A DNA stretch of 64,000 bases from Sphagnum magellanicum (lineage: Eukaryota; Streptophyta; Sphagnopsida; Sphagnales; Sphagnaceae): NCBI GenBank assembly GCA_021904315.1, contig CM038917.1, positions 13,004,041-13,068,040 of the forward strand, given 5' to 3'. Numbering within the stretch: the first letter of the stretch is position 1; every line of letters begins with the position of its first letter. Of the stretch, positions 5,680-63,430 are shown piece after piece. The notes below the pieces were generated by a model. The model did no database searches, was not told where the DNA came from, and saw nothing but the letters and a program-made list of their open reading frames with translations. The position numbers and the translations under genes were made by a program.

Positions 5680-5790
5680 TGAACATTGAGTACTATAGGA
5701 TTGGCGTAGCCCATGTGCAGATTGAGTACTACAGGATTGGTGCAGCCCATCTGCACATTGAGTACTACAGGATTGGCATATGCCATGTGG
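5680..5790. repeat. 36-bp tandem repeat, about 3 units
   Basis: Units read ATTGAGTACTACAGGATTGG followed by about 16 bases such as TGCAGCCCATCTGCAC. They lie just upstream (minus-strand sense) of dehydrogenase copy 1. The right arm has the same array with about five units (42774-42935). The array is open in several frames, which creates spurious ORFs on both strands. Confidence 0.85.
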
Positions 5791-22829: not shown

Positions 22830-24280
22830 TACAATATGTAGGAAGAGCTATTGGTATTGGTAAAACAAAAATAATTAGATCTATCCAAGATTATTTTTTG
22901 AAAATGGGAAAACAACAAAAACTTAGAGTTACCACATACATTGCAAATGTAGCCTTATTAATAAATGGAACAACGATACACTCTTTGTTGGGATTATCGA
23001 TTGATAAACACAGAACTATAAGCAAACCTAACTCAATCATAAACATATGGCCAAATATTTAGTTCATCATTATTGATGAATTATCCATGGTAGGTTGCAT
23101 TTTGCTTGCCACAATACACTTAAAATTACAAAAACTAAAATCTAACATTTTACCATTTGGAGGATTCAACATAATGTTCATGGGAGAGTTTTTACAATTT
23201 CCACCAATCAATGACACACCATTATATTCAACAAACATGCAATTGATTTTTTCAATCACAAAATTAACACAGGAAAAAGTCATAAAAGCCTTTGGGAGAA
23301 TTACATTTGACCAAATAGTATTATCCTAATAGAACAAATGGGACAAAACAAAGACATTCAATATGCTACCTTTGTAGAAAACCTTTGAACTAGAAATATT
23401 TTAAAATCAGATTTTGATTTGTTAAAGATTTTTTTTCTATCTAATTTAAATGTCAACTTATTCGATGATCCATGGAAGAAAACAACTTTTATAGTTCCTC
23501 ATAATGAATTACGAAATGCCATAAACCATTACATCATAAATATCCATTCAAAAACATCAAAACAAAAATGTTACATTATTGTTGCAACTAACACATATAA
23601 AAAAGGTCCAATATGTAATGATATCAAATAGATCAAAAGACAAACAAGTCCACAAGTAAAACTCAATGTTTAACACCTTTCCTTATAATCTATAAAGGAA
23701 TGAAAATCATTATTATTGAAAATTTCTATTCTAAATTCAAAATTGTAAACGGAAGCATTGGATACATCGAAAATATGTCCTTCACAAATTTGGAACGGAT
23801 ATAGAAAGACGTTACAATGCATCCCCCCATAAATGTCTTCGTCAATTTTAACGATTTCATTGAAAAGAACATAAAATTACAAAACATAAAACTAGAAGGC
23901 CTCCCTAAAAATGTCATACCAATAATACCCATATCAAGGAATTTCCAATATCACCATCACATATTGGAATTAAGCACTTTCAAAACATTCATAATTAATA
24001 ATGCCAATTGCCCTAGCTTTTTGTCTCATAGATTTCAAAACGTAAGGACAAACATTTGACAACTTAATCATAGACCTTCGGCCACCACCTGACAATGTGT
24101 GTTTAAATATGCACAACATATATGTAACCTTATCATGTCTATGATCCATAGATGGATTCATAATTTTACAAAATATTACTATGTAGGACATATGCAAAGC
24201 TAACTTCAAAAAAGAATCCCTAGAAAATTTAAAACCTATTTCAAAACATAATATAACCAAAAAAATCCAAATTAATAATC
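22830..24280 (+). pseudogene. Helitron PIF1-like helicase remnant
   Basis: A superfamily 1 helicase that would unwind the element during rolling-circle transfer. Visible blocks are Walker A GIGKTKII (about 22856), TIHSLLGL (about 22977), Walker B FIIIDELSMVG (about 23063), motif III GGFNIMFMGEFLQFPP (about 23158), and near the C-terminus GQTFDNLIIDLRPPP and NIYVTLSCLRS (about 24047-24150). Several stops and frame changes interrupt it. The C-terminal stretch is repeated in inverse at 38650-38949. A host PIF1 gene is unlikely, given the adjoining Rep domain. Confidence 0.85.
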
Positions 24281-24329
24281 CACAAAAATCCTACAAAAAA
24301 AAAAAAACATTTAATTATGATCAGTGATT

Positions 24330-24860
24330 TAGATGATGACAATATTGACAACAATATCATCAATTATTGGCATGAAGAATTCCAATGAACTAAAAATGAT
24401 GAGAATATTCCTTTCAATTGGAATGGATGGTTGAATGATCAACATTTAATAGTTGCAATGCAAATATTGTATGTTCAAAACTTACAATTGTTAGGATACC
24501 AAGAACACACAAACACAATCATAGGAACTATACATAGATGCTTGTTTAATGGATCGTCTTCAAGATATTTTCATAAATAATAATCATTGGATTTTAGTCA
24601 AAATACACACATCCACACTAAACCTACATTGCATAGTATATGATGCAAACAGACTGACAATAAAAATTTATTAAATGACACCATTCAATTATTAACCAAC
24701 ATCATAAATGTAAAACACTTATTATATTCATATGCAAATGTTATGCAACAACCAGATAGTTCATCTTATGGACTTTTCACAATAGCATATGCAACCGATA
24801 TAACATTTGAACTAACTCAAAAAAATCTATTTACAATGTGCCACAAATGTGACCGCATTT
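24330..24860 (+). pseudogene. Ulp1/C48-like cysteine protease remnant downstream of the helicase
   Basis: The plus strand shows GWLNDQHLIVAMQIL (about 24430), then HWILVKI with IVYDANRL (about 24572-24650), then QQPDSSSYGLFTIAYATD (about 24747-24800). This is the order and spacing of a Ulp1/SENP (peptidase C48) fold: W-L-x-D entry, catalytic His in HW, Asp in YD, Gln, and the Cys-Gly site. Here the Cys position reads Tyr (SSYG). Repeat copy B retains Cys there (SSCR) and copy C has Tyr. Stops and a frame change make it dead. It may have been the end of the Helitron protein, a second gene of the element, or a separate transposon scrap. Confidence 0.65.
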
Positions 24861-24912
24861 GCTTAACAACATAAACAATAAAACTATATCTCCATTCCCC
24901 AAATACTCGCAT

Positions 24913-25470
24913 TCAAACACTATAAAAATGAAATGGTAGATCATCACTAGTAGTGCATAAGAATGTGGAGCCTAAGTATATATATGTAAATGGCTTCAAT
25001 TTGTTATACATTAATGGAACAGATCCACCATCTTTCTCAATAGGTGCATCATAATAATATATTATGACACTATCTAAACTATCACATGAATAGGTAATAA
25101 CTTGCCACCAAAACAACCATCTGATGTTGTGATACCTTTTCATTATCTTCTAAAAATCATTAAACTTTTGATGTAAGGTTTGCAATGTAGCCTTGTGCTT
25201 GAAGATTTCAAAAAATGATTAATGATATAATTTAACAAAGAATCAACTTCTTTGGAAATGATATCATATGGTTTTGTTTTTATGATTTCAAGGGTTGTAA
25301 GATTGGTTTTAAAGGCAACACAATGCATTGAAATGATGAAAGGGTTTTACCTTTTGTTTCAACATGGTTGTAACTCATGTCCTTTGCCCAACCATTGTTA
25401 TAGCTCCATATGATCCAAATGCAATACATTTATCTAGGTCCAACCCCCCTTTCTTTTCTTAATGTTGCAA
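24913..25470 (-). pseudogene. hAT transposase fragment, copy A
   Basis: The minus strand reads CIAFGSYGAITMVGQRT, then HCVAFKTNLTTLEIIKTKP, DVDS-like helix SKEVDSLLNYIINHFLKSS, MKRYHNIRWLFWWQ, and DSLDSVIIYYYDAPIEKDGG. This is the layout of the catalytic-core region of hAT transposases of the ZNF862/KIAA1586-like group (D-G-A..MVG, HCVAHR..L, K-x-x-x-I-RWLS). In-frame stops and a frame change divide it, and the C-terminal hAT dimerisation domain is missing. It lies tail-to-tail with the Helitron. The same pieces occur at 37490-38030 and 62890-63430. Confidence 0.7.
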
Positions 25471-28060
25471 AGATAATGTGACCTTTTTTTTCCTTTGTAA
25501 ACATTAATGAAAACTTTATCAATTTTTGAGTTGAATTTCATCCAATAAAATAAACTGTACCATACATTCTTCCATGCTTTTTGGGTAGCCTCAATAGGAT
25601 TCACATTGTTTTTACCACGGTGAAGAAGGAGAAAAAACAAGTTTTTGGACATCATGAATTGACATGCAATTTTTTAAAAGAAAATCTTTTTGACTAATTT
25701 AGATTATATGTCATGTTCAAGAGAAATGAAAAACATAAGTGAAAAGTTTTCTTGATTGTGAGTAATGTTGAATGGAGTAATAAGATTAAGGGTTACAAAT
25801 AATGTAAACAAATCAAGGAATATAAAGGTGAAATGCCATTCAACTTTTGAATGAAATGTGAAATTATGAGGTGGCATTTGACTTTTGAGCAACAAAGTGG
25901 TGAACATGCATGTGAAGGTTGCAACCACCAAAAGCAAATGAAAAATGTGAAACACCACTTGATTTTTGAATGAGTAAATGCCCTTCATTCTTGAACAATG
26001 AAATAGTGAACAACAATGTGGAGTTTGGAAACATCAAAAGGAAATGAAAATTGAAAGAGAAAATGAGTAGATTAGGGTTAGGGTCATATATAAAATGTTA
26101 GGTTTTTTTTGTTTTTTTCAATAGTCAAAATCCATGATAAAAGTTTATAAAAATTTATTATCTTTAGAAATTTTGGTAGGTAATATAGTTGTCCATGAAA
26201 AAAAAGTTTATTTAATTTCCATATCGTCATGTTTTATGGGAAATTTAACTCCTAAAGTTGAGAATTTGAATCAATTTTTGGGGTAAAATGTTCAATTAAC
26301 ATTTAATTAATTGTCAGTTATCCCTATACATTGGATTGATTTACTATTTCCCATGTCCCATTCATAAATATAAAATTAGAATTGAAAAAGGTAGAAAACT
26401 ACTAAGGGGCACCTTCGATGGAGGTGCAAAAGGAAGGTCCAACAAAATGGAACAATCAAGTTGGTTGAAAGTCATAAATTGAACCGCCACGGCCTTTAAA
26501 TGAAAATCCAAAACTAATTCAAGCCAATTTGAGGAGGAATCTACATGACATCATTTGCAAAGAAAATTTAGTTGGTTTGGACAAAAAATTATACTAGAAG
26601 GTGAGCTCATAGTTTGGAGAACCAAGATGGAAACTAGGGTCTAAGGTTGTATTTCATTGTGTTCATTATTTTTCATTGTTTTTCAGTTGTTTGTTAAGTT
26701 GACATTGTGCAAAAATGGAGGACATTTTGTGGATTAAAGAGATTGTTGAAAGCACCTTACCATTCCATTTTTTAGCACATCTAGTGTTAACATGATTGGA
26801 TTTGTAAATCCACACAAGGTTATTGTTTTAAGGAGCACATTTTCAACTCTTGCCAATGCACAAAATGAAAATGTTTTGAAAATGAGCATAGAAAGTTTTG
26901 ATTATGGAAGATTGAAATGCTAGTTTTCACAAGTTGAATGATATTCATACGTATAAAAAATTGCTAAACCAACTCCCATTCTAAAAAAAAGAGCAACAAG
27001 GAAAAAAAATTTGTAATTACAATGAAAAAGGAAGAGGAGGATAGTGAGAAAGTTGGAAAAAGGTGGGTGAATGATTAAATATTACATCTGATTACAAGGA
27101 GAAATGGAGTTCAAATTTATAAAAAAAGTGAAAAAACAAGATAAATTCTAATTCACTTGAAACTCTAATTGTGCTTGTTTGGATAGAATTTTAAAAAGAA
27201 TGTTTTCAGATTTGAAACTTTCTCTTTTTTAGACTTGAAACTTGAACAAAGTGATTTTTTTGGAAACAAACTAAACATAAAAAATAACAATGACTTTATG
27301 CATTGCCTTAGTTAAAACTAAGATCATCAATATCTTGTGCTTATTTTTCATTCACTATGTGGAGTAGGAAACAAGAAATAAAAAAATTAACATGAGAAAA
27401 ATAACCCCAAAAAAAATCCCCTATTGCTTTCACATGTGAATTTCACACTTTGACCAATTGGACCCTCAAATTGAACCCAATGCCTTTAGACAAACTCGTG
27501 GTACATTGAATTTTTGAAGAAAAAATTAATGTGAAGAAAGGACCAATTCAAGGATTCAATGAATTCGTTGGCCTCACCTACTAAAGTAATGATATTATGT
27601 TTAGATTCATTATAGAGGATAGTAGTTTAAGGGATTTTGGTCTTTAATACATAGGTCTATTTTTATATGAAGATTTTTGAAAGATGATATTTTGGTTTAT
27701 GTTGAAGCTTGGGATTAGTTATAGAGTTATCCTTAGGTCTATCTTGGAGGATGACTCCATTTCCTCAACATCCAGAGCCCACATTCATTCTTGTTTGAGC
27801 AAGGGGGTAGGGCTGTGGTTAATTGTTAGGCCATCTATTTGTTTGTTTTGTGTCACTCACTTTACTTTCACCTCAGCATTACATTTTCATCTCAATTTGA
27901 TTTAACCCTTGACATTTAATCTTTTCACATGTGACTCTGAACACATGTTGGATGCATTTGGCATGCACTTAACTTGTTGTTCATTTGGAGGTCAATGGAT
28001 AACCACACATGACACCATCCAAAACGTCATGTATGCTTTCACAATTGAATCTAATGATTG
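25471..28060. other. Remainder of composite repeat A, no gene
   Basis: Open frames such as minus 25704-25988 and plus 27684-27905 have counterparts in copies B and C and so look like ORFs of a repeat. They show no domain I recognise, and in copy B they are broken. Runs of A and T are common. Confidence 0.6.
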
Positions 28061-28796: not shown

Positions 28797-30925
28797 TCAG
28801 TGTTGATGGAGGTGGCCCAATCCGACTGAAGAAAGGATCACAAACACAACAGCATGGAGACCTAGAACATAAGCCACTGTCAGCAAGCGAAGGAGCCTGC
28901 TGCGCCGCAGTTGGCTGCCCGCATGAAGACTGAAAGCATCCATTCTCAGAGCTACTTGAGCAACATTCTCTGAAACTCCCTTAGCACCCCTTTGGCGCAC
29001 TGGAGCTGACCGGAGCCTGGAATCCTCCAAGGCAAATGCTGCTGCAGCTGATGATAGTCCTGATGATGACCGACCAATCTTGTTTCTTTTAAAATAGTCA
29101 AGGTCACCATTTCCAGCAACAAGATTTCGCCCTGCTGTATTAGCTCGCTCAAGTCCAAGTTCCAGTGCATTTCGCTCATTGGCAAGGGACTCCAGTTGTG
29201 CCTGCGAAAAGGTTTCTATACTTTATATATTCCAGTAGGGAGTGAGGAGAAATACTACTTCTTGGGCAAAGCCTAATTTGCAGCTTGAAAATAACTGCAA
29301 ACACAATGACCTTCAAAGCAAGTCCAGAAGGATATGTTTGTGGATTAGCCTTACATCCAGAAAGATCTACACACTGCACAATATTTGAGCTCCACCGGGG
29401 ATAATCTTATTCATTACTGTGAAACAATCTGCTTTGTTTTGCAGTTTATCAGCAGTGAAGATACTGGCAAAAATGTTCTAGACAGATAGAATTATGAAGA
29501 ATCACAGATCCAGACACACCTGCTTTGTCACCAATTGCTCAGTTAAGCTTCGTAACCTGCGCTCCAGATCTTTTTCTCGTTGGACTGCATGACACATGCC
29601 CCCTTCAGAACATTTGTTTCAACTATGTCTTAACTGCTTCAAAAAAACCACAAGACTGATGCAAAGCTCTAAAGAAACTTCAGATGCTAGACGCTTCCAC
29701 CTCAACACATGACTAGCTTCCATGCTGACCTGTTGAATTGCAGATCAACTCAAACATAACAATAATCTACCTGGAGAGGGCCATCTTGCTGTGTTTTGTT
29801 GCAAAGACATCCATTCCTCCTCCAACTTTGAGACTTTGATTTTCCAGTTCTCCTGCATTGGACTCACAACAAGTTGTTTCTCTGACTACATGAATTCTGA
29901 GGAACAGAACCAGATGCACCATCAACCAGCTAGAAGACACATAGAAGTTTGCTTGAGTCTATCTGTGACCCAGAAATGGGTTTATGCACGATGGAAGCCT
30001 ACCAGCTCTGTTTTTATTATTTCTACGCCCTGTTCATCACTTGATCGGACACCTTTTGCATTGGTTTCATCATTCAGCTTGCTGTCATCCTCAGTTTGCT
30101 GCATTTCAATTGACATTGCTTGTGATGCAGAGCTTTCTTTCTCAGCAAGAGCTGCTTGGAGCTGCTCAAGCTCATCCCTAAGTTGTGTTTCTCTATGCTC
30201 CATCTCCTGCGGTTATTGTAAGCAGAACAATCACAAAAAAAGAGAGATAAGTAAGCAGGACCTGATTCAGGAGTACAATCTCTTTGATATCAAATCTCAT
30301 TCAACAAAAAAAATTCAAAATCAATGAAGTAGGCAAATAAAAAGAAAAAATCCTGCAGTCATGCAATCTGTATTGGTGTTTGAAGAAACATGTCGATGCT
30401 ACATGTGTTCCCACAAAGACCTAGAGATAGAGAAGAGGTGCAACAAAACCTGCAAGCTGCCTTCCAGGTGACGAGCTTCCTGAGCCTTCTGACGTATATG
30501 CTCCTGTCTGGCCGTCAACGCTTTAGCATATGCTGCATTCTCTGCTTGCAATGAGGTCTCCCGCAATTGCAACTGCCAAAGAATGATGCATAATAAGAGA
30601 CCGCTGCCAATAAACCTTTGTATACTTCAAGAGTGAAGAAACCTTTACAGACCTGTTCGCGGGTGGCAGAGTGTGCATGAATCTCGAGAGCCAGAGCGGA
30701 ATGGGCTGCCACCGAGTCAGCATGTAGATGAGGCAGACGTTCGGCAATGTGCGCGGGAGGCATCCGTTGCCTGATTTGCTGCAGACTGTGCTGCAAAGCC
30801 GCTGCGCGGGCATCTAACGCACTAACAGCCTGCCATTGCTGAGGGGTCATACGCAGCGTGTGGTCGTCAGATCCCGCTCCGCTTCCACCCACCACATCCG
30901 CTGCCCATGCCAACAAACCCGCCAT
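28797..30925 (-). CDS. Coiled-coil protein with C-terminal membrane anchor
   Basis: An intact gene for a conserved plant protein of unknown function that I recognise by sequence but cannot name. Six exons on the minus strand: 30925-30653, 30572-30450, 30206-30003, 29852-29771, 29584-29520 and 29201-28797. All introns are GT..AG and the sum is 383 residues plus stop. Features: N-terminus MAGLLAWAADVVGG, then RLPHLHADSVAAHSALALEI (64-83), charged heptad-like coiled coil over roughly 85-270, a conserved WPSPVQREKDLERRLRSL block, a Ser/Ala-rich linker, and a hydrophobic segment LLTVAYVLGLHAVVFVIL (about 355-372) a few residues from the end. That layout suggests a tail-anchored or golgin-like protein of the endomembrane system (inference). 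The start is the first ATG, preceded by a GC-richer leader. Codons and splice sites look unbroken. Confidence 0.9.
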
Positions 30926-32768: not shown

Positions 32769-35065
32769 CACTACTAGAAATCTTGTCATTTGCAACCAGT
32801 CACTATGCAACTAGCATGTAACTGGTTGTCGTTTATAACTATCTTGGTCATGTTTGCAACTACAAATTTGGTATTGTATAAATTTTAGGCCATACGATTA
32901 TGTGTGCAACTAAATGTGTACAACATGGACACGTGTCATAAAAATAATGGCCTAAACTTATACATATTTAAATATTATATTTAATATATCTACATAGGTT
33001 ATATATAATATTATTATGTACCTCTAGTACTAAGGTTAACCCCATGCTAACTTAGGCTAGCCTAAACTAACCTAGGTTAAATTAACCATGGTTAAATTAA
33101 ATTAAACTAAACTAATTATGGCTAAATTAAATTAAATTAAGCTAAACTAACCATAGTTAAATTAAGTTTAAGCTAAAATAATAATGGCTAAATTAAATTA
33201 GGCTAAAATTAACCATGGCTAAATTTATTATATTAAACCCATTATGGCTAAATTAAATTAGGTTAAAATTAACTATGGTTAAATTAAGTTAAACAAAATT
33301 AATTATGTCTAAATCAAGTTAGGCTAAATTAAATTAAACTAAATTAAACTAGGCTAAAATAAATATGGCTAAATTAAGTTAGGTCAAATTAATTACGGCT
33401 AAATTAAGTTAGGCTATAATATTTATGGCTAAAATAAATTAAACTAAATTAAGTTAAACTAAACCATGGTTTAAATATGTTTAACTTTATTTTATTTTGG
33501 GATATTTTATTATAAATAATCATAATTATTAATTAAATGTTTGTTATAATTATAGTGATAATCAATGATATATATATAGGTATTATATATTTAAATTTTA
33601 TTATTTCTGTTAAAATATTAATGTAAATAGGCTACACTAATTAACCTACAAGTATACAAACATCCTAAGCTAATTATTAATTTAAATTAAATAATAATAT
33701 TAAAATCACATTTTCATTAAGTAATCATAATTACTAAATATCCTATAATCACCTTTGAAATGCAAAAGAAAAGGAGTAATGAAGAACTAACAAGAAGAAA
33801 AATAAGAAAAATAAGCTTTCCAAGTTATAAAACGTTATGTTTTTTGTTTTTTTCTTAGGACCCCTCCTACTTTCAAAGCTCATAACTTTCTTATTTCTTA
33901 TTCATTTAAACAATTTACAATGATATAGGAGTGCCATCTGAAATCCTACAAATCACATTGGAACTCTAATAGCAAAAAAAAACATAAAATGAACTTTCTA
34001 GGTGTTTAAGAACCGGCCTTAATAGTTTCTTTTTTGAGTTTTTTGACCCCCTTTACTTTGAAGGGCCATAACTTTCTGATTTATAATTTGTTTTCAACGA
34101 TTTTTAGTGTGTTAGATGCGCCAAGAGGAGGGCTTCAAGTTTTGTTTGGACACCAAAAATAATAGAGCCCTCCCCTAGCTATTATACTTTAATATTGTAG
34201 TTGCATCCATTGTGCAACTAGGTTGGTTCATGAGGTTTGCAATGGAATGCTTTAACCCATATCCTTTGGCTTTCAATTTTATTTGGCTCCATATATAAGT
34301 AGGAGCAATAGATATGTTGAAACCAAATACCAAGTGCCATTGGGGATGAGTGAATGAAAAAAACTTGACCTTTATGAAATGGTCAAACCTAAAAATAAAA
34401 TCGGATTATTCTAAACCTACTTATATAACCTAAGCCTAATTATTTTTCAACCTATTTACATACCTAAATAAACCTACTTATTTAATAGGGTTTAATTATT
34501 ATCTACCTACCTAGGCACCATGTGTGAACATCTTATTAACCATAAATTGGATGACTTATATTTCATTAATTAGTATTAAAGATTTTAAAAATAGATGGGC
34601 TTTGATTGCCACATGTCACCATATAATTGGTGTTAAAATATTGAACACGTGTCAAATGATCAATGAACGTTCCATGGTGTGCCACGTGTCATCATCATAG
34701 TGGCAAAACCTTTAATGATTGAGATTAATCTAATGAATTTTTAATTTTGAAAACACAAAAAAATTAAAATAATGACACGTGTCCACAACTAGTTGTCTAA
34801 TTTCTAAACATGTGTCATATTTTGATTAGTTGCATGTAGTTGCAAGGAAAGTTGAACATAAAGTGCAACTACATTTGGATTGGTATGTATGTATGAACAT
34901 GTATACTAACACTGTATGTACATGTTGCATATGTAGTGTCGCATGAAACTGCATGTCATGTGCAACTTGTCTTAAGCAACTACACAAATTTGCAATTGCA
35001 TGTGTCGCATGCAACTGAATTTTAGTTGCAAACAACAGTTGTAAAACCCAAAATTTTTAGTAGTG
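32769..35065. mobile_element. Non-autonomous CACTA element
   Basis: A 2297-bp element with termini CACTACTAGAAATCTTG at the left and, in inverse, CACTACTAAAAATTTTG at the right, 15 of 17 matching. It is flanked by the 3-bp target duplication AAT (32766-32768 and 35066-35068). The paralogous sequence at 60468-60476 lacks the element, so it is an empty site. Subterminal regions repeat TTGCAACTA and GTTGCATG motifs, as CACTA transposase-binding regions do. There is no open frame of transposase type; the interior is AT-rich with minisatellite DNA. Confidence 0.92.
33040..33480. repeat. Degenerate minisatellite inside the CACTA element
   Basis: About 440 bp built of variants of ATGGCTAAATTAAATTAGG and the related GCTAAATTAA core, with irregular unit length. 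It is confined to the CACTA interior, so it probably arose within the element. Confidence 0.75.
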
Positions 35066-35068
35066 AAT

Positions 35069-37489
35069 GAAAACATAACGCTGAAGTGAAAGTGAAGTGT
35101 GTAATGCAAAATGAACAAATAGATGGCCTAACAACTAACCATAGCCTTGCCCCCTTGCTCAAACAATAACAAATGTGGCCTTTGGATGTTGAGGAAATGG
35201 AATCATCTTCCAAAATAGACTTAAAGATCACCCCATAACTAATTTCAAGTTTCAACATAAGCCAAAATATCATCTTTCAAAAATCTTCATATAAAAATAG
35301 ACCTATGTATTAAGGGCCAAAATCCTTTAAGCTCCTATCCTTTATAATGAATTTAAACACAATATCGTTGCCTTGGTAGGTGAGGCCAACAAATTGATTG
35401 AATCCTTGAATTGGTCCTTTTTTCACATTAAATTTTTCTTCAAAAATTTAATGTACCACAAGTGTGTCTAAAGGCATTGGGTTCAATTTGAGGGTCCAAT
35501 TGGTCAAAGTGTGAGATTCACATGTGAAAGTAGTAAGGTTTTTTTTTTTTTTTTTGGTCATTTTTTTCATGTTAATTTTTTTGCTTCTTGTTTTTTGCTC
35601 CACATAGTAAAAATAAGCACAAGATATTGACAATCTTAGTTTTAACTAGGGCAATGCATAAAGTCATTATTACTTTTTATGTTTAGTTTGATTTCAAAAA
35701 AATTATCACTTCATTCAAGTTTCAAATCTAAAAAAGAGAAAGTTTTAGATTTGAAAACAAATTTTGAAAAAAACATCTATCAGAACAAGCACAATTAGAG
35801 TTTCAAGTAAATTGGAATTTATCTTGTTTTTTCACATTTTTAATAAATTTGAGCTCCATTTCTCCTTGTAATCAAATGCAATATTTAATCATTCACCCAC
35901 TTTTTTCCAACTTTTTCACTTTCCTCTTCTTCCTTTTTCATTGTAATTACAATCATTTTTTTCCTTGTCGTTCTTTTCTTGAGAAGGGGAGTTGGTTTAG
36001 CAATTTCTTGTAAATATGAATCTCATTCAACTTGTGAAAATGGGCATTTCAATCTTCCATAATCAAAACTTTTTATTTTCATTTTCAAAACATTTTCATT
36101 TTGTGCATTGGCAAGAGTTGAAAATGTGTTCCTTAAAACAACAACGTTGTGTGGATTTATAAATCCAACCATGTCAACATTAGATGTGCTCAAAAATGGA
36201 GTGGTAAGGTGCTTTCAACAATGTTTTCAATCCACAAAATGTCCTCCATTCTTGCACAATCTCAACTATACAAACAAGTGAAAAATAATGAAGACAATGA
36301 AAAACAACCTTAGACCCTAATTTCCATCTTGGTTCTCCAAACCATGACCTCGCCTTCTAGTTTAAGTTTTTGTCCAAACCAACTGAATTTCCTTCGCAAA
36401 TGATGTCATGTAGATTCCTTCTCAAATTGGCTTGAATTGGTTTCAGATCTTCATTTAAAAGCCTTGGGGGTCCAATTTATGACTCTCAACCAACTGGATT
36501 GTTCCATTTTGTTGTACCTTCCTTTTGCACCTCCATCGAAGGTGCCCCTTAGTACCTTTTTCAATTCTAACTTTATATTTATGAATGGGACATGGGAAAT
36601 AGTAAATCAATCCAATGTATAGGAATAATTGACAATTAGTTAATGCTAGTTGAGCCTTTTGCCCAAAAATTGATTCAAATTCTCAATTTTAGGGAGTTAA
36701 ATTTCCCATAAAACATGACAATGTGGAAATCAATTAAACTTTTTTTTCATGGACAACTATATTGCCTACCAAAATTTCTAAAGATAATAAATTTCTAGAA
36801 GCTTTTATCATGGATTTTGACTATTGAAAAAAACAGAAAATTACCTAACATTTCTTAGATCACCCTAACCTTGATCTACTCATTTTCTCTTTCAATTTTC
36901 ATTTTCTTTCGATGTTTCCAAACTTCACATTGTTGTTCACTACTTCATTGTTCGAGAGTGAAGGGCATTTACTCACCAAAATCAAGTGGTGCTTCACATT
37001 TTTCATTTGCTTTTGGTGGTTGCAACCTTCACATTCATGTTCACCACTTTGTTGCTCAAAAGTCAAATGTCACCTCATAATTTCACATTTCATTCAAAAG
37101 TTAAATGACATCTCACCTTTACATTCCTTGATTTGTTGACATTATTTGTAACCCTTAATCTTATTACTCTATTCAACATTACTCACAATCAAGAAAACTT
37201 TTCATTTATCTTTTTCATTTCTCTTGAACATGTCATATAATCAAAATTAGTCAAAAAGATTTCTTTTAAAAAATTAGATGTCAATTTCATGATGTGCAAA
37301 ACCTTGTTTTTTCTCCTTCTTCATCGTGGTAAAAACAATGTGAATCCTATTGAGGCTACCCAAAAAACATGGAAGAATGTATGGTATAGTTTATTTTATT
37401 GGATCAAATTCAATTAATTTGATAAAGTTTTCATTAATGTTTACAAAGGAAAAAAAGGTCACATTATCTTTGCAACATTAAGAAAAAAA
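35069..37489. other. Composite copy B, non-coding part
   Basis: Homologous to 60477-62889 and, in inverse, to 25471-27930. ORF-like stretches (minus 35022-35273 and plus 36871-37139) are repeat-derived, without a recognised domain, and degraded relative to copies A and C. Confidence 0.6.
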
Positions 37490-37944
37490 TGGGGGTTGGA
37501 CTTGGATAAATGTATTGCATTTGGATCATATGGAGCTACAACAATGGTTGGGCAAAGGACATGAGTTTAGACCATGTTGAAACAAAAGGTAAAACCCTTT
37601 CATCATTTCAGTGCATTGTGTTACCTTTAGAACTAATCTTACAACCCTTGAAATCATTAAAACTAAACCATATGATATCATTTCCAAAGAAGTTGATTCT
37701 TTGTTAAATTCTATCATTAATCACTTTTTGAAATCTTCAAGCACAAGGCTACATTGCAAACCCTACATCAAAAGTTTAATGATTTGTAGAAGATAATGAA
37801 AAGGTATCACAAAATGAGATGGTTGTTTTGGTGGTAGGTTATTACCTATTCATGTGATAGTCTAGGATAGTGTCATAATATATTATTATGATGCACCTAT
37901 TGAGAAAAATGGTGGATCTGCTCAATTAATGTATAAAAAATGAA

Positions 37945-37980
<36 letters not shown>

Positions 37981-38030
37981 CTCCACGTTGTTATGGAATA
38001 CTGATGATGATCTACCATTTCATTTTTATA
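37490..38030 (+). pseudogene. hAT transposase fragment, copy B
   Basis: The plus strand shows CIAFGSYGATTMVGQRT and HCVTFRTNLTTLEIIKTKP, then the SKEVDSLLNSIINHFLKSS helix and DGCFGG/RWL region in a shifted frame, as in copies A and C. It contains several stops and a (TA)n run at 37946-37978. Fragment only. Confidence 0.65.
37946..37978. repeat. (TA)n microsatellite
   Basis: An uninterrupted TA run of about 16 units lies inside hAT fragment B. The corresponding site in copies A and C has only a short TATATA, so it expanded after the copies separated. Confidence 0.9.
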
Positions 38031-38949
38031 GTGTTTAAATGCGAGTATTTGGGGAATGGAGATATAGTTTTATTGTTTATGTTGTTATGTAAATGCGATC
38101 GCATTTGTGGCACATTGTAAATAGATTTTTTTGAGTTTAGTTCGAATGTTATATCGATTGCATATGCTATTGTGAAAAGTCTACAAGATGAACTATCTAG
38201 TTGTTGCATAACATTTGCATATGAATATAATAAGTATTTTACATTTATGATGTTAATTAATAATTCAATGGTGTCATTTAGTAATTTTTTTGTTGTCGGT
38301 CTATTTGAATCATATACTATGCAATGTAGGTTTAGTGTGGAGGCGTGTATTTTGACTAAAATCCAATGATTATTATTTATGAAAATATGTTGAAGACAAT
38401 TTAGTAATTAAGTTTCTATGTATAGTTCCTATGATTATGTTTGTGTGTTGTTGGTATCCTAACAATTGTAAGTTTTGAACATACAATATTTACATTGCAA
38501 CTATTAAATATTGATCATTCAACCATCCATTTCAATTGAAAATAATATTCTCATCATTTTTAGTTAATTGAAATTCTTCATGCCAGTAATTGATGATATT
38601 GTTGTCAATATTGTCATCATTTAAATCACCGATCACAATTAAATGTTTGTTTTTTCTTTGTAGGATTTTAGTGGATTATTATTTTGGATTATTTTGGTTA
38701 TATTATGTTTTGAAATAAGTTCTAACATTTCTAGGGATTCTTTTTTGAAGTTAGCTTTGCATATGTCCCGCATAGTAATATTTCATAGGATTATGAGTCC
38801 ATCTATGGATCATAGACATGATAAGGTTAGGTATATGTTGTGCATATTTAAAACACATTGTTAGGAGGTTGCCGAAGGTCTATGATTAAGTTGTCAAATG
38901 TTTGTCCTTGTGCTTTGAAATTTGTGAGACAAAAAGCTAAGGCAATTCA
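38031..38949 (-). pseudogene. Helitron tail in copy B (C48-like plus helicase end)
   Basis: The minus strand has QQLDSSSCRLFTIAYAID (about 38180), the C48-like active-site block with Cys kept but the next Gly changed to Arg, and at higher coordinates the helicase C-terminal segment matching 24012-24300. It is cut at 38949, where the right arm of the inverted duplication starts. Confidence 0.7.
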
Positions 38950-40840
38950 GTCTTGAAGAACATATTTTCTAAATGATACACTAGTAAGTTTAGGTCCAAA
39001 ATGGTAATTTGACAACACAATTTACAATCCAAAAAAATTATCAAAATATATTATCGTGTAAAGGTGTGGATAATTATTGTAAATGATTGTATTAGTCTAA
39101 AAGCATTTTAAATCTTTTGAAAAATGAAAAAACATTGAAAACACTAGTTACATTGTTTCAAAAGTGCTTTTGAATATTCTATTTGATTACATTCATTCCA
39201 AATTAATCCAAATGTTTTCGTAATATATTAAAAACGTTTTTGTGTAAACATATTAAAAATTTGCAACATCAATACAATTCTTGACCCAAAAACATCCAAA
39301 ACCAAGCATTGGTTACAATTTGGGTGGCTCTTATTAATGTAATTGCACGTTTTGCTCTTGCAAAACTTTCATCATAATGCTACTTAAGGTTTCATTACAC
39401 AATGAACTTGAAAAACATTCACAAAATCACACTTGGGAGAATGGTCAACCAAAACCAAGTCTTGAAATCCTACAACCTTAGGGTAATCGAAAAAATTGAA
39501 ATGATGGACTCTCGTCAAACCTATAAATGTCATCCCCATTTCCTTTGCATAAAACACCTATAAAGTTCTTCATTTATCAACGTCTAACATGTTTTTCATG
39601 TTGTGACAAAGTAGTGTACTCCTTGCATGTAGGTCCTTTCATTGTTTCATTAAAAAAACACCAAATTGTGTGTAGTACCTCAAACAAAGTCAAGGATAAA
39701 GGAAATGGCCTACTTACTAGAGTTTCAGGAACAATGTGCTTGAAATGGAGGTGCACAACCTATGAAATCATGTTAAAAATTTTCTCTTGATCTTCTAATG
39801 TAATTGGATTTTCTTGATTGCAAGAAAACACTATGACACGGAAGAAGTGGAAAGTGAGATCCAAAGAAATTCCATCATTTGGATCACATGTAGGAAGGTA
39901 AGGAAGAACTTTGTACATGCTTCATGCAAGGATCCCTTTTAAGATGGATATCAAATCTTGAAGGATTTTTGCTAGTCGCCTTTTACCCACTACCTTTTGC
40001 AACTCCTACGCATTTCCTCCTTTCACCTATCCACCTCGTGATAATATCGGATACTGAAAAATAATAATATCAAGTTCAACTCTATGAGCCTAAACCCATT
40101 TAATTTTATTTTCTCAAATCCGTTCAAGCCTTCCTTTTTCTACTTATTTCTATTGATGCTCTTGATCTACCCTCGCTTCTGCAATGAAGGTTAACAAAAT
40201 TGATAATGTCTATTTATCTCTTTTCTCTTTGTATTCTTTTGTATTTTCTGATATTCCAATAGCAAACACAAAAGTAAGAATAAATAAATCAATTAATACA
40301 GAAAACATGCATTTAATTCTTGATCCGCCCTTGACGACGGATCAAGGGAAAACGAAGGGAAAATCCAAAGACACGGGGAAAAGGGAGAAATATCATAAAA
40401 AACAAAGGAAAGTAAGAAGGACAAAACATGCAAAAATCTTTATCCTTTTGTTCTTTGTGTTCTTTTACATATTTTGGTAGTTCTCACATGAAACAGAATC
40501 AAACGTACTCATTGCTCTTGATCTACCCTTACTCCAGTTGCAATCAAGAAAAAAGAACTATGACAAAGAAAAGATTGTAAAACTTGTAATCGTCTCTGTT
40601 TTTATTTGTATTCTTTCGTACATGGTACATTCTAATGGTTCCCAAAGCAAAAAAGAGTGAGCAGAAAAAGAAAGGAAGCAAGAATACAAAGACATGTACG
40701 AAAAGTATTGGGAGAATTTTCCTAGTGTTTTTGGAGGGCATTTTATATCCATGAATTTCCCTTCTAGAAAAGGGGAGAGACATTATTATGCCTACTCCTT
40801 CGGGACCAGGCAGGACCTTAAGTATGCCTACAAGCCTACT
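38950..40840. other. Non-coding inner part of right arm
   Basis: Counterpart of about 5930-8005. AT-rich with C and T runs. The open frames here (plus 39527-39790 and plus 40184-40480) are not conserved in the left arm and show no domain. Confidence 0.6.
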
Positions 40841-41082
40841 CCTTAAGAGTGGAGGGTTTGGGATCTTACAGTTACTTGCAGGTGTAAGAACCCTCACACT
40901 CTTAAGGAATAGGCAATTTTTCTTGCAGGCGTGGCAGGTCTCCCATGGCATATGCCAATCCTGTAGCAGTGCTGTCCAACGGCTGGCCGCTAGCTGCAGC
41001 CGCCTGCAGCCGCCCGCAGCCGCAAATCGGCTGCGGCTGCGGCCAGGATTTTGATTAGCGGGCGGCTGCAGGCGGCTGTGCG

Positions 41083-41369
41083 ACAGGAGCAAAGCTTTCT
41101 ATCCGTGAGCATGAAACAGATGTCAATATGCGGAATGTGGAGATGGAAGGCACATATGAGCAGATTGAGCATGCCACTGAGATGGTCCGCCAATTTCTTT
41201 AGCAACGAGCTGAAGTAACTGTGCCTCAAAGGGCTGCTGTTACTCTAAGCTCCCACAATTTCAAGACCAAGCTATGTGAGAACTACACTCATGGTACTTG
41301 TACTTTTGCAGACCACTGCCATTTTGCCCATGGAGTCCATGAGCTGCGATCCACAAATCGATTGAGATG
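41083..41369 (+). pseudogene. Captured KH / CCCH zinc-finger gene fragment
   Basis: The plus strand reads GAKLSIREHETDVNMRNVEM, the second half of a KH domain, then QIEHATEMVRQFL, a stop, and in the same frame FKTKLCENYTHGTCTFADHC followed by HFAHGVHELR. The finger has spacing C-x7-C-x5-C-x3-H. This combination is typical of plant RNA-binding CCCH proteins with a KH domain, whose C-terminal part has this order. One in-frame stop after RQFL and the missing N-terminal half make it non-functional. DNA after 41369 (to about 42360) may be the captured 3' UTR and other host sequence. It lies wholly inside the hAT element. Confidence 0.85.
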
Positions 41370-42375
41370 ATCAGAGCTGAAACGCATGGAGGTCTACCCA
41401 CAAAAGTAGACAGGCAACAATAGACTGCAAAACAGTGGAAAAACTCAAGTAACTACTATGAGAGATGAACGTAGCAAATTGCACACTATGGTCAGTTGCA
41501 CAAAACCCACTTTCATGTTCAGAAACATGCAATCCACATTGTAGCCGGCGACAATACTCGTAGCAACAAGCGCAGCGGGTTGCATCCAAGCACCCTCAAT
41601 GCTCTTCTCTTTCTCCGTTCTAATCAGGACCTTGACCGTAAATAAACACGTTCAAGAGTAAGACGGCTACGGCTCAAACATTGTGTTAAGTTAACACTTC
41701 GTGGCCAGCAGCCACTCCCTTCCCACCCTTGGGAAACAGGTGGGCATCAGCGAAGCCGGCGCCTGTTCCGCTAGCATGCAAATTATTATTCTTCTTCTTC
41801 GTTAGACCGGAAGTAATGTTTTGGCAGCTTTCCTAGACAGATCAGGATGAATCAGCACACTGGATCATCGCTTCGTTCAGCTGGTAGTAGCTGCTTATAT
41901 AGTACTTCTGCTAGTTCGACTCAGTGACAGTTTCGACTCAGTGACAGTAGTACAAGGCATATTAAGTGGATACTACAATTGGGTTTTAGCAACAGCAGTG
42001 CCAGCAGCAGTAGTAGCTCATCTAGGAGTAGTAGTAGTAGGAGTAATTTCGTGAGCTTTGATACGTTAAAGGATTTTATGAAATTTTTTCTAATCGCAGA
42101 AGCTTAGCGGGGTTGTAGTGGCGAATTGTTTGCTTGCATTACAATGTGAAGTATTTCTCATTAAAAGCAATCACTAGAAGTGAGATCAGAAGAAGTATTG
42201 GGGACGATCCAATCCAAAAACAGAGATAGAGAGCTCAAAGATCAGATTTAAACTGCAGGAAGACTAGTTAATTGAAGAAAAGTTCTAGATCATCTTCACC
42301 AGGATATTATCAGTAGATTGGGTTTGCTTAGAACTCATCTTAATTCATTGAAGCGGGTTTTTTTTTTTAATCAAG

Positions 42376-42465
42376 ATGTTAGGTCGCAGGAAGGCCCGTG
42401 CAGCAGATCGGGAAGCTGCTGCATATAATGCAACTACAGGAGCTGGAGGTGCAAATGGTAGTAGA
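42376..42465 (+). pseudogene. Possible captured first exon in the hAT element
   Basis: An ATG at 42376 opens MLGRRKARAADREAAAYNAT, followed by a Gly/Asn-rich stretch, after a T-rich leader-like segment, then runs into hAT subterminal GC repeats. It looks like the start of a host coding sequence. If it came from the same KH/CCCH gene, the two pieces are in swapped order; it may be a different gene. The family is not recognised. Confidence 0.35.
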
Positions 42466-42772
42466 ACGGGCGGCTACCGTTCCGGCTGCCATATTGGCAT
42501 GTGAATCGGGCGGCTGCGGCTGCGGCCGAGATTTCATCAGGACCAAAACGGCTCGGCTGCGGCTGGATGCCGCCGGATGCTTGAACAGCACTGGCTGCTG
42601 CATATAATGCAACTACAGGAGCTGGAGGTGCAAATGGTAGTAGAACGGGCGGCTACCGTTGCGGCTGCCATATTGGCATGTGAATCGAGCGGCTGCGGCT
42701 GCGGCCGAGATTTCATCAGGACCAAAACGGCTCGGCTGCGGCTGGATGCCGCCGGATGCTTGAACAGCATTG
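42415..42772. repeat. 179-bp tandem duplication of the hAT right end
   Basis: Two head-to-tail copies, 42415-42593 and 42594-42772, differ at only a few positions. Each ends in a terminal repeat: the inner copy ends GAACAGCACTG and the outer GAACAGCATTG. The inner end matches the left terminus better than the outer end does. Confidence 0.92.
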
Positions 42773-42773
42773 T

Positions 42774-42935
42774 CCTGTAGTACTCAATGTGCACATGGCC
42801 TAAAGAAATCCTGTAGTACTCAATGTGCAGATGGGCTGCACCAATCCTGTAGTACTCAATGTGCAGATGGGCTGCACCAATCCTGTAGTACTCAATGTGC
42901 AGATGGGCTACGCCAATCCTATAGTACTCAATGTT
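42774..42935. repeat. 36-bp tandem repeat, about 5 units (right arm)
   Basis: Units begin CCTGTAGTACTCAATGTGCA followed by GATGGGCTGCACCAAT or variants. This is the inverse of the array at 5680-5790, with about two more units. The hAT element sits at its left edge. Confidence 0.88.
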
Positions 42936-43295
42936 CATTGGGTCCCACATTCCCATGAACATTTCCTATTTAAACTATTGTTGTGTTGGAAAGAAACCAG
43001 TTCTCTTGCAAAATCAAGTTGTTTTAAAATGCACCGGAAAGCCATGTTCTAGGCCAGAGACATTATACGACTAGCTTCTTATTTGCTGAGTTGTACAATA
43101 CAAGCCTCCAGTGTTGTCATCGTCATCCTCAATTGCTTGAATCTGTGATTTGATCAATGATTGTCGATCTGAACAGTCCATAATTCAATCCATTTGGTTC
43201 TGCTACAGCTTCTTTGATTTGGAACTGTGTTCTTTTGCAGGTTTGATTCATATACACCCAATTTCTCTCTAGGAGATTCCCTGAAGTGTACTGCC

Positions 43296-46200
43296 ATGGT
43301 GATGTCTGCTGCTTCTCCTTTGAGGTTAGTTATCCCATTCATAAGTTTTGGGAAAGTTTCTTGCACTGCATAATAGGTCTAACAGATCATACAGTCCTCT
43401 GAGATGTAGGGAGCTGCAATTCTTACTTCATTTCATTGTGAGAATCACATGGAAGCAAATATGTTGATCTAATCCTGAGTTTGATTGACATGAAATATTG
43501 GAGATGAGCAGCTACTATTAAGCTGGTGAATCCATAAGCCTTGCTGTAGTCTCAGCTGGCATATGGTTCAGCTTCTTGACTTACTCTAGGATAAGAAGGT
43601 CATTTCAGAGAGGGTCAATTTGGGGTTGTAGAATATTGGAAGCCTCTCCAGACACATGCTCGTTGGGTTTGTGATTTCGGGTCATCTATGTGAGCTGATT
43701 TCTTTGAAGAAAGATTTGAATGATAAAGTCTTAAAATTTTTCACAGAGTCAGTCATTTGATCTTCAAATGATCTGAAAGGGTCATCATCTTTGGTAGGCG
43801 GCTAGTGGGCAAAGTGGCAGTGATAACTGGAGCAGCCACAGGCATAGGGCATGCGGCAGCATGCCTATTTGTGGCGCATGGAGCCAAAGTGGTGATTGCT
43901 GATGTGAAGGACGATGCTGGGCAGACACTGGTGAATGAGCTTGGAACAGATTGTTCCAAGTATATACACTGTGATGTCAGCAAAGAGAGCCATGTTGCCA
44001 CTGCAGTGAATCTTGCAGTGCATTCTTTTGGAAAGCTTGACATCTTGTACAACAATGCAGGCCACTTAGGTGAGCTGATCCTAAATCTATGATGTTTGAA
44101 CATATCTGCCAGCAAAACATTTTTTTGGTAATGAGTTTATCACACTTGCCTAATTTTTCACAGAATCAATTTGAGGATGATGAAGGCCTTGTTGATGTGC
44201 TATATATGGACTCAAGAACTTGAAGAGTCCTTCAATTGTTTGACCTACATGCAAGGCACTAAGAGAAATTTCCTAGTAGATTTGAAGGGCACCTGCTATC
44301 CATGAATATCCCTCTTGGAAAAGCGGAGGGATCTTACACTTACTCCTTAGGAGTGGGAGGGATGTTACATCTCATCTTAGGCCCCTTATTTTGCAAATGC
44401 CCCCACCCTGGGGCTTTACCCTACAGCTTTTGCCTATACAGATAGGTATGATATGTCCTGCAAGGTTTTGGACTCAAGCATTACATGCTAGGTAGGGCTT
44501 GTGGACGGTGCAATTACAAGAATAAGGTGCCTGCCCAAGGTGGCAGTTAAGGGCAGCTGGTTACACCGTGTTCGAGGGTCTCACCATGCATAAGGACCTG
44601 TCAAGCAAACAAAGAAAACACAGTGGGCCCTTATGAAATGCGTAAGAGCCCACCCAGAAACAGAAGATTACCTCCCATGTCAGGAGGAACCTTTAGGATT
44701 TAAGGCATCCTCCCAATACACTGGGAAATCTTTGACAGGTCATTACGAGCCAAGCAACAGTTGATTAGGATTGACTGCTGTCTTGGTAGCGTTAGAGGTT
44801 CAATTTTGAGTCTGACTGCAGGATACTGCATTTCCAAGTCCACAGAGAAGAATTGGTCAACAAATTTCTCCCATCCTAGTATAACTTTGTATAACTTCTG
44901 CATCTCAATTTTTCGTTGGACGTGTCTACAACTCTGGAGCCACCAAGTTGTACAGCTGAATGGTTGTTTGGGAGTTGTGAATTGAATCCACTGAGTGCTT
45001 ACTAATGCATCAAAGTAAGCAATCATGGATTTCAAACCAGGTGGGAGTTTGGTCTCATGTGCAGGCCCACTGTTCCCAATTGAAGAACTACCTGTTGATG
45101 AGTTTCGAAAGCTGCTGGATGTGAATTTGCTGGGAACAGTAATCGGCATCAAACATGCAGCAAAAGCAATGATCCCAGCAAAGCAAGGGGTTATTATAAG
45201 CACAGCAAGCATTGGTGGATCTATTGCTATGGGAGCATTTGCATACGGTATCAGCAAAGCAGCTGTAATTGCAGCAACCTATAATGCCTCAGCCCAACTC
45301 ACCAAGCATGGCATCCGTGTGAACTGCATATCACCAGGAGTCGTGGCCACACCTTTGTCATTCTCCAGCTTTGGGTTGGTAGCAGCTTTGCCCTTCTTTG
45401 TAAAACCTAGCAATCATAAGAGTGGGGAATATTATACTAGATAACAGGCCTAAGGGGAGGATTTCAGGTCCTAGAAAGTCCCTGTGTGAGTCCGTTATAG
45501 CTAGCTCAAGGATGCGCTAAGGTCTGGAATAATGGGCTCACCCATGGACTTGCTAGGAAACCAGAATCCACGTTGTGTGGCCCCTTATCTTGCGTTAAAG
45601 GCAGGGAACTCTTGGGGAACTGGTGGGGGTACTCCTGCCAATGCTGCAGAATCTGCAGCAGGGGCTGATTCGGCGGCCTCCAAATCACTGCAGAGGGGAG
45701 CCTGAATAGGCCTTCCTTGCCATCAAGAATTACACTTAACACACCCAAATAGCATCGAGTGGGTTTATTTTCCAGCCCAAAACAGGTTTACACTATTTGA
45801 TTGTAATACTTCATCCAAAATATACTGGAAAGGCCATTATACTGCTGCCACTCGGCATGCTCTTAGGCACCATCATGGCTGAGTCCTATGATAGAAACTC
45901 ATTGTATTGGCTCCCATACCTTATGAAAGTCCACCTTGTGTCCATGACTCTTAAGGTGATGGGCAGGGATGTTGATAGCTGGTAACATAGTCTGCAACAT
46001 AGTCTAGTCAGTCAATTCAATGCTCAAACTTCGCACACATTAAAGATTTTCGAAGTGGGAAGGCTGTAACTGAAAATAAACAACGTATAAACCCAAGAAG
46101 TTAAACATGAACTTTTTGAATAGTTTTGTGGATACTTAGCATCTTCTGGACACTCTCCAATAATGCGTGTCCTAAGGCGTACTGTTTGATCAGTTCCGGT

Positions 46201-46461
46201 GCTTTTCCCAACTCAGCTGTGCTTTGGCTTTTCTGCAGAAAGTTCTACCCAGACTTGAGTGAAGAACAATTTGGGAAGATGGTCGAGCTAGAAAACTTTT
46301 CTAATATTGCAGGTGCAAGATTGACTCCTGAAGTGATTGCAAAGGCTGCCCTTTTCTTGGCCAGTGATGACTCACCATATATCTCAGGCCACAACTTGGT
46401 CGTCGACGGTGGATTTCTCACAAACAAAAGCCTCTCACCCTCATCCAACCTCTCTTTATAG
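43296..46461 (+). CDS. Short-chain dehydrogenase/reductase, SDR110C type, copy 2
   Basis: Paralogue of the gene at 2170-5320 with the same four-exon structure: 43296-43324, 43798-44069, 45065-45374 and 46239-46461, GT..AG throughout, 277 residues. The 29-nt first exon again encodes MVMSAASPLR. Kept residues are TGAATGIG (20-27), Asp45, NNAG (95-98), Asn121, Ser149, Tyr161-Lys165 (YGISK), and SGHNLVVDGG near the end. Changes from copy 1 cluster in the substrate-side loops: after NNAG (HLGPLFPIEEL against IVGPWSPSEAL), a one-codon deletion before the Tyr, and the segment after SPGVVATP. Both copies keep frame despite many silent and intron changes, which suggests both have been under selection (inference). 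Copy 2 has Cys for the Arg at residue 32. The substrate may differ from copy 1. Confidence 0.9.
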
Positions 46462-59240: not shown

Positions 59241-62200
59241 TTTTCCCTGGACACCCCCACCCTCATTCCTTTGGCCAGTTCACAAGTTCGAAGTTCGAAC
59301 CCTAAAATTTGGAACGTGCAGTGTAAAGAAATCTACAACTAACAGCCATCCCCATTGGCTCTCATGAAAGCAGGTGTTGGATGAACAAGAGTAAATATTA
59401 TGGCTGTTTGGGGGCAGGAAAAATGGCGTTTCATTTGTGCACATGATGCTATGGCTGCCGAAAATGCGCTACACAATTTAACATCTACTGTTGAGTGTGG
59501 TTAGACTCACTGATTGGTCGAGGTGCTTTGCGCATGAGGACACTTTAGATGATGATCCAAGTCCAAAATCTCATGAACCAATTTGAAAAAAATGTAATCA
59601 TAAAAAAAAAACCAAAATGTTTCAAGATATTATATCTCTATAACTTTTTCATCACAAAAATTCAACAAAAGATTGATGGCCGGAAACATCACAGGGAAGA
59701 CAAAAAGGGAAGGCCAAAACCAAAAGATGCACAGCCTGCAAGAACCAAAAAAAAGGGAGAGAGTTAGTCCCTCTTGTGGTAGGAAACTATCTCACACATC
59801 GCCCCTCTAATGTCGCATGCATGCAAATTGTGAAATCTAATAATAATGGGAGGTCTAGAACAAGCATCACTTGTCAATACAATCTTCCTTTCCATAAAAA
59901 AGATTAAAACACACTAGAGAACAATATTAACACACTGCCTAAAAAATTTAATGGAAAAAGACAAGGATAAATGACCTCCTAATCACCTATCATGGAAAAG
60001 ATGGACACACCCCCTAATGAAATGATCCATATCACATTCAAGTGCACCATGCACCTTCATGGCCATCATAATAAAATGGTGCCCTTCATGAAGTCTTTTA
60101 TACTTGCAGATTTTAACAATTGCATTAAATTTTGAAATTGCACCTATTGGTTGGTTAATGACACTTGAAGCCAATGTCTTCTATGTCGAGTTAATAACCA
60201 CCACATTAACAACAAAGACCTAATCCTCCCAGGTCATGTAAAGATCAGCTTGTAATGAAATTCTTGACGTAAGGGTGTACCACCATTCTCTCCATGCAAC
60301 GTGCCCATTATATTGAGTGAAAACATACATGACATTTCGGATGGTGTCATGTGTGGTTATCCACTAACCTCCAAATGAACAACAAGTTAAGTGCATGCCG
60401 AATGCATCCAACACGTGTTCACACTCACATGTGAGAAGATTAAATGCCAAGGGCTAAATCAAATTGAGATGAAAATGTAATGTTGAGGTGAAAGTAAAGT
60501 GAGTGACATGAAACAAACAAATAGATGGCCTAACAATTGACCACAGCCCTACCCCCTTGCTCAAACAAGAACGAATGTGGGCTCTAGATGTTGAGGAAAT
60601 GGAGTCATCTTCCAAGATAAACCTAAGGATAACTCTATAACTAATCCCAAGCTTCAACATAAGCCAAAATATCATCTTTCAAAAATCTTCATATAAAAAT
60701 AGACCTATGTATTAAGGACCAAAATCCCTTAAACTACTATCCTCTATAATGAATCTAAACATAATATCGTTGCTTTAGTAGGTGAGGCCAACAAATTGAT
60801 TGAATCCTTGAATTGGTCCTTTCTTCACATTAATTTTTTCTTCAAAAATTCAATGTACCACAAGTGTGTCTAAAGGCATTGGGTTCAATTTGAGGGTCCA
60901 ATTGGTCAAAGTGTGAAATTCACATGTGAAAGCAATAGGGGTTTTTTTTTCAGTTATTTTTCTCATGTTAATTTTTTTATTTCTTGTTTCCTATTCCACA
61001 TAGTGAATGAAAATAAGCACAAGATATTGATGATCTTAGTTTTAACTAAGGCAATGCATAAAGTCATTGTTATTTTTTATGTTTAATTTGTTTCCAAAAA
61101 AATCACTTCGTTCAAGTTTCAAGTCTAAAAAAGAGAAAGTTTCAGATCTGAAAACATGCTTTTTAAAATTCTATCCAAACAAGCACAATTAGAGTTTCAA
61201 GTGAATTGGAATTTATCTTGTTTTTTCACTTTTTTTATAAATTTGAACTCCATTTCTCCTTGTAATCAGATGTAATATTTAATCATTCACCCACCTTTTT
61301 CCAACTTTCTCACTATCGTCCTTTTCCTTTTTCATCGTAATTACAAATTTTTTTTCCTTGTTGCTTTTTTTGTTAGAAGGGGAATTGGTTTAGCAATTTT
61401 TTATACGTATGAATATCATTCAACTTGTGGAAATTAGCATTTCAATCTTCCATAATCAAAACTTTCTGTTCTCATTTTCAAAACATTTTCATTTTGTCAT
61501 TGGCAAGAGTTGAAAATGTGCTCCTTAAAACAACAACCTTGTGTGGATTTACAAATCCAATCATGTTAACACTAGATGTGTTAAAAAATGGAATGGTAAG
61601 GTGCTTTCAACAATGTTTTTAATCCACAAAATGTCCTCCATTTTTGCACAATCTCAACTTAACAAACAAGTGAAAAACAATGAAATACAACCTTAGACCC
61701 TAGTTTCCATCTTGGTTCTCCAAACTATGAGCTCACCTTCTAGTTTAATTTTTTGTCCAAACCAACTAAATTTCCTTCGCAAATGATGTCATGTAGATTC
61801 CTCCTCAAATTGGCTTGAATTGGTTTTGGATTTTCACTTAAAGGCCGTGGCCGTTCAATTTATGACTTTCAACCAACTTGATTGTTCCATTTTGTTGGAC
61901 CTTCCTTTTGCACCTCCATCAAAGGTGCCCCTTAGTAGTTTTCTACCTTTTTCAATTCTAATTTTATAATTATGAATGGGACATGGGAAATAGTAAATCA
62001 ATCCAATGTATAGGGATAAATGATAATTAGTTAAATGTTAGTTGAACCTTTTACCCAAAAAATTGATTCAAATTCCCAACTTTAGGAGTTAAATTTCCCA
62101 TCAAACATGACAATATGGAAATCAAATAAACTTTTTTTTCATGGACAACTATATTACCTACCAAAATTTCTAAAGATAATAAATTTCTATAAACTTTTAT

Positions 62201-62889: not shown

Positions 62890-63430
62890 TGGGGGTTGGA
62901 CTTGGATAAATGTATTGCATTTGGATCATATGGAGCTACAACAATGGTTGGGCAAAGGACATGAGTTACAACCATGTTGAAACAAAAGGTAAAAACCTTT
63001 TCATCATTTCAGTGCATTGTGTTGCCTTTAGAGCCAATCTTACAACCCTTGAAATCATAAAAACAAAACCATATGGTATCATTTCCAAAGAAGTTGATTC
63101 TTTGTTAAATTATATCATTAATCATTTTTTGAAATCTTCAAGCACAAGGCTACATTGCAAACCTTGCATCAAAAGTTTAATGATTTTTAGAAGATAATGA
63201 AAAGATATCACAAAATCAAATGGTTGTTTTGGTGGCAAGTTATTACTTGTTCATGTGATTATCTAGGATAGTGTCATAATATATTATTATGATGCACCTA
63301 TTGAGAAAGATGGTGAATCTGTTCCATTAATGTATAACAAATTGAAGCCATTTACATATATATACTTAGGCTCCACATTCTTATGCACTACTAGTGATGA
63401 TCTACCATTTCATTTTTATAGTGTTTGAAT
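62890..63430 (+). pseudogene. hAT transposase fragment, copy C
   Basis: The plus strand shows CIAFGSYGATTMVG, HCVAFRANLTTLEIIKTKP, SKEVDSLLNYIINHFLKSS and, in another frame, the YYDAPIEKDG region. Same layout as copies A and B, with stops and frame changes. It resembles copy A more closely than copy B. Confidence 0.68.

Follow-up and report, generated by a model that had tools for sequence, protein, structure and literature searches.

A probable Pack-type hAT element with a KH/CCCH gene fragment and a tandemly duplicated right end in Sphagnum magellanicum

The window analysed here is a stretch of 64,000 nucleotides from Sphagnum magellanicum (GCA_021904315.1, contig CM038917.1, positions 13,004,041 to 13,068,040), in which an inverted repeat with arms at about 1-8 kb and 39-50 kb harbors, in its right arm, an element of 1806 bp that is probably a non-autonomous hAT transposon. 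Copies of a short-chain dehydrogenase gene are present in both arms (2173-4844 and 43772-46458), with plant borneol and secoisolariciresinol dehydrogenases as their best PDB matches, and a Golgin_A5-like coding piece on the minus strand (28800-29222, E=5.9e-10) probably belongs to a host gene. About 16 kb (8004-24005) containing Helitron_like_N and PIF1 helicase pieces are found only in the left arm, the right arm being continuous at 38948, and represent either an insertion into the left arm or a deletion from the right one. Another segment occurs three times (24006-28056, inverted with respect to the others, 35067-38947 and 60306-64000) and carries a Peptidase_C48-like (Ulp1) frame just under the Pfam cut-off. 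Additionally, a CACTA-like element of 2297 bp (32769-35065; ends CACTACTAGAAAT and CACTACTAAAAAT, with AAT as probable 3-bp target site duplication) has no counterpart in two further copies of the region, one near 60460 and one, reversed, near 27890. It is another DNA transposon for which natural empty sites are available. The features of the hAT-like element and its target, including its terminal inverted repeats (TIRs) and target site duplication (TSD), are the following:

40959..40966, plus strand: left copy of the TSD, TCCTGTAG (from the sequence)
40967..42772, plus strand: probable non-autonomous Pack-type hAT element, 1806 bp (from the TIRs, the 8-bp TSD and its absence from the left arm)
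40967..40979, plus strand: left TIR, CAGTGCTGTCCAA (from the sequence)
40997..41078, plus strand: GC-rich left subterminal hairpin with CGGCTGC/GCAGCCG repeats (from a self inverted match, a DNA fold z of -4.75 and the motif positions)
41083..41370, plus strand: probable captured host gene fragment, with the C-terminal half of a KH domain, one C-x7-C-x5-C-x3-H finger and a terminal stop (from translation, Pfam and PDB)
42376..42504, plus strand: candidate second fragment, an ATG-initiated frame of 42 codons (MLGRRKARAADREAAAYNATTGAGG...) (by inference only)
42415..42593, plus strand: right-end unit, inner copy, 179 bp (98.3% tandem duplicate)
42581..42593, minus strand: inner right TIR, CAGTGCTGTTCAA, followed by GCTGCTGC and lacking a TSD
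42594..42772, plus strand: right-end unit, outer copy, 179 bp (tandem duplicate of the inner copy)
42760..42772, minus strand: outer right TIR, CAATGCTGTTCAA, bordered by the TSD (from the sequence)
42773..42780, plus strand: right copy of the TSD, TCCTGTAG (from the sequence)
42773..42934, plus strand: tandem array of 4.5 units of 36 bp, the first unit being the target (from repeat analysis)
5683..5789, minus strand: matching array of 3 units in the left arm, with the unoccupied site

The two arms align on both sides of the element, and the edges of the indel were taken beforehand from this alignment, independently of any TIR or TSD. At these edges the TSD is exactly 8 bp long, identical on both sides, and cannot be extended either way; the TIRs are 13 bp long, with 11 of 13 positions identical between CAGTGCTGTCCAA and CAATGCTGTTCAA and divergence beyond, and share the form CA(G/A)TG (CAGTG.. 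and CAATG..), in which position 2 is A and position 5 is G. Under a naive model, the chance of finding such TIRs and an 8-bp repeat at preset edges is about 1.7e-10. With up to 2 mismatches allowed, the TIR recurs in the window only as the inner right-end copy, and no further copy of the element was found there. The element-end patterns are absent from prokaryote and viral contigs, as expected for a eukaryotic element, a literature search with the TIR string gave unrelated matches only among the papers listed, and Rfam gave no match in 38000-46000. The TIRs, TSD and edges given in a preliminary description of this DNA are confirmed; that description overlooked the tandem structure of the right end.

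Assignment to hAT is purely structural. It is favoured by the short 13-bp TIR of CA.TG form together with a TSD of exactly 8 bp, features that speak against membership in another superfamily with TSDs of 8-9 bp (MULE, P or Merlin); plant MULEs in particular usually have long TIRs and TSDs of about 9 bp. Such a membership appears very improbable, even though TSD length is not unique to hAT and the element contains no transposase. Counted against the hAT reading is the TSD itself, since TCCTGTAG only half fits nTnnnnAn, the TSD consensus of Ac-type hAT elements. The ends of the element also carry repeats: the first 112 bp are 70% GC, and clusters of CGGCTGC/GCAGCCG lie no more than about 110 bp from the left end and, on the right, no more than about 290 bp from the duplicated end, with none in the interior. 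These clusters resemble hAT subterminal repeats, for which a role in transposase binding is putative here. The strong folding of the long left-end hairpin (z -4.75) is explained by the same repeats, and no RNA function is claimed for it.

Between the TIRs, the frame at about 41083-41370 translates as ...TGAKLSIREHETDVNMRNVEMEGTYEQIEHATEMVRQFL, a stop, QRAEVTVPQRAAVTLSSHNFKTKLCENYTHGTCTFADHCHFAHGVHELRSTNRLR and the terminal stop. The part after the first stop shows the C-x7-C-x5-C-x3-H spacing and matches Pfam zf-CCCH at E=8.8e-5, passing its cut-off, whereas KH_1 is matched only by its C-terminal half and fails its cut-off (E=0.03); the KH half lies directly upstream of the CCCH finger in the same frame. 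The closest PDB relatives of the fragment are tristetraprolin-type CCCH fingers, and it has no relative in prokaryote contigs. The element frames examined yielded no transposase domain, so that the element combines host coding DNA between TIRs with the lack of a transposase, as in Pack-TYPE elements, with the zf-CCCH match above cut-off and the KH half weak. Because of the in-frame TAG at 41200-41202, between the KH half and the finger, the captured frame is broken, and it has no evident function. An origin of the KH/CCCH sequence within the transposon family itself, by inheritance from an autonomous ancestor, is highly unlikely: the piece begins in the middle of the KH domain beside the subterminal repeats and stops soon after the finger, like the 3′ end of a gene, and hAT transposases are not known to include a KH-CCCH module. 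Plant proteins combining KH and CCCH domains are found in poplar, where KH occurs in CCCH subfamily VIII (PMC3427045), and in barley (HvC3H11, PMC8922935). The frame at 42376..42504, whose translation begins MLGRRKARAADREAAAYNATTGAGGANGSR..., has no Pfam match and putatively represents the 5′ part of a further gene taken up by the element.

The TIRs, the TSD, the unoccupied counterpart site and the Pfam match together support a non-autonomous hAT element with a host gene fragment. A Pack-type hAT that took up this fragment, later had its right end duplicated in tandem and would have been mobilised in trans into the right arm is proposed with good confidence. The same evidence supports the preliminary description insofar as it proposed a Pack-hAT with a KH/CCCH fragment and without transposase.

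The final 179 bp of the element, TIR included, are present as a tandem duplicate with 3 differences (98.3% identity). The inner right TIR agrees with the left TIR at 12 of 13 positions and the outer one at 11 of 13; it is the outer right end that is bordered by the TSD, which indicates that the 1806-bp form is what inserted at this locus. A shorter inserted unit, with the inner right TIR as its end (40967-42593), was rejected because its flanks, TCCTGTAG and GCTGCTGC, differ from each other. Of the three sites at which the end copies differ, two (42591/42770 and 42509/42688) show C-to-T changes in CHG context, and one of these lies within the terminal TIR, a pattern expected of a methylated plant element. 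The joint between the copies coincides to the base with the end of the inner TIR and shows 0 bp of microhomology, and this coincidence of joint and terminus points to an end duplication made by transposase or by self-nesting. With no microhomology at the junction, ordinary replication slippage or unequal crossover without transposase would require a random duplication to have stopped by coincidence precisely where the TIR ends; this origin seems rather unlikely, yet tandem duplications are common and slippage has been proposed for the tandem TIRs of tomato MULEs (PMC3310237). The GCTGCTGC after the inner end corresponds to the first 8 bases of the 179-bp unit. Insertion of a sibling in the same orientation at GCTGCTGC, followed by recombination between the left parts, would leave the sequence observed at the inner end, but the repeat of GCTGCTGC is not diagnostic by itself because any tandem duplication repeats those bases. 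Within the transposase-made or self-nested origin, we tentatively suggest, as a possibility short of an even chance, that the tandem right end records a self-nested insertion and its collapse, leaving one left and two right ends, the outer of which was used in transposition.

In the left arm, the counterpart near 5765-5776 (reverse complement) lacks the element and shows no excision footprint. The unoccupied site noted in the preliminary description is thus real, though its position coincides with the first unit of a 36-bp array that differs in length by two units between the arms, the left arm being the shorter. An arrival of the element after the inverted duplication, also part of that description, is favoured by the present data and falls short of proof, since one deletion between the CCAATCCTGTAG repeats in an occupied left arm would yield the same structure. 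One of these repeats belongs to the left flank, the other to the border of array units 2 and 3; on this alternative the insertion preceded the duplication, and a direct-repeat deletion then removed the element and two array units from the left arm. The left flank joined to unit 3 does match the left arm better (score 345) than the plain insertion at unit 1 (303.5), and a single event would cover both arm differences, the lost units as well as the absent element. On the other hand, tandem arrays readily gain and lose units, so a two-unit difference needs no tie to the element. The divergence between the end copies (3/179, 1.7%), which should not be younger than the insertion, lies below that of the flanking arms (2.8-4.1%), the opposite direction from that expected of an insertion before the duplication, but the difference does not reach significance (Poisson P 0.07 to 0.27). 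Altogether, an insertion before the duplication is regarded as an unlikely alternative, and landing after the duplication is preferred. With a non-significant difference in divergence and a broken captured frame, the young appearance attributed to the element is not established.

Gene capture by hAT elements has been documented since Du et al. (2011) described two Ds2 and nine Ds-l4 elements in maize (PMC3260210). Pack-hATs have been catalogued in maize and rice together with a model of fusion between neighbouring insertions (Gisby and Catoni, 2022; PMC8903248), and 208 of 370 animal Pack-TIRs reported in 2021 are hAT (PMC8277862). The earlier suggestion that capture by hAT is less often described and for that reason notable is weakened by these publications. 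Like maize Ds2 and Ds-l4, the Sphagnum element has hAT ends, an 8-bp TSD, a length of about 1 kb or more and host-gene filler in place of transposase; it differs from them in a TIR that is not of Ac/Ds type, in the gene captured and in its subterminal motif, CGGCTGC here and AAACGG there (PMC3260210). Its right end has a close parallel in the compound Ds-l4-483, whose terminal part is a truncated repeat of the element itself (PMC3260210): in both, a regular element has such a self-copy, terminating in a TIR, appended to it, and the TSD lies beyond the outer end. In Ds-l4-483, however, about 5.5 kb of other DNA intervene and a separate TSD flanks the inner element, whereas here the second right end abuts the first and comprises 179 bp only.

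The maize and rice Pack-hATs likewise carry gene-derived DNA between hAT TIRs flanked by an 8-bp TSD, and fusion of neighbouring insertions is described for them, in the case of hAT, as far as the text of that article indicates, in a supplementary figure (PMC8903248). Those elements form multi-copy clusters; in the window, the present one occurs once. Metazoan Pack-TIRs resemble it as hAT TIR elements with captured host DNA (PMC8277862), but are mostly single-copy and gap-filled in place, whereas here a TSD and an unoccupied counterpart site are present. Extra TIRs at one end, solo or in tandem, are known in MULEs (PMC3310237); they share with the present element the TSD on the outside only and the non-autonomous nature, and some of these MULEs carry gene fragments as well, although they belong to the MULE superfamily and have long TIRs.

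The following history is proposed. DNA of a plant KH-CCCH gene would have entered between hAT ends by copying, in an ancestor of the element, most likely as filler in the repair of a break at an excision site or a stalled fork. A tandem duplication of the right end would then have followed, with transposase action at that end as the most likely cause, either through insertion of a same-orientation sibling copy into the internal GCTGCTGC site and collapse by recombination or through a sister-chromatid event. An unseen hAT transposase may have mobilised the resulting 1806-bp form in trans, using its left and outer right TIRs. Its insertion into the right arm, with the 8-bp TSD, is read directly from the sequence and probably took place after the inverted duplication.

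The element adds one well-delimited Pack-type hAT, with exact ends, a captured gene and a natural unoccupied site, to a type that is already catalogued; the picture of which superfamilies capture genes is unchanged, and the compact tandem right end is its sole unusual detail. This duplication could help to test models of how Pack-type elements acquire DNA. If it was indeed made by transposase, it would represent a compact intermediate for the growth of Pack-hATs and their pick-up of DNA.
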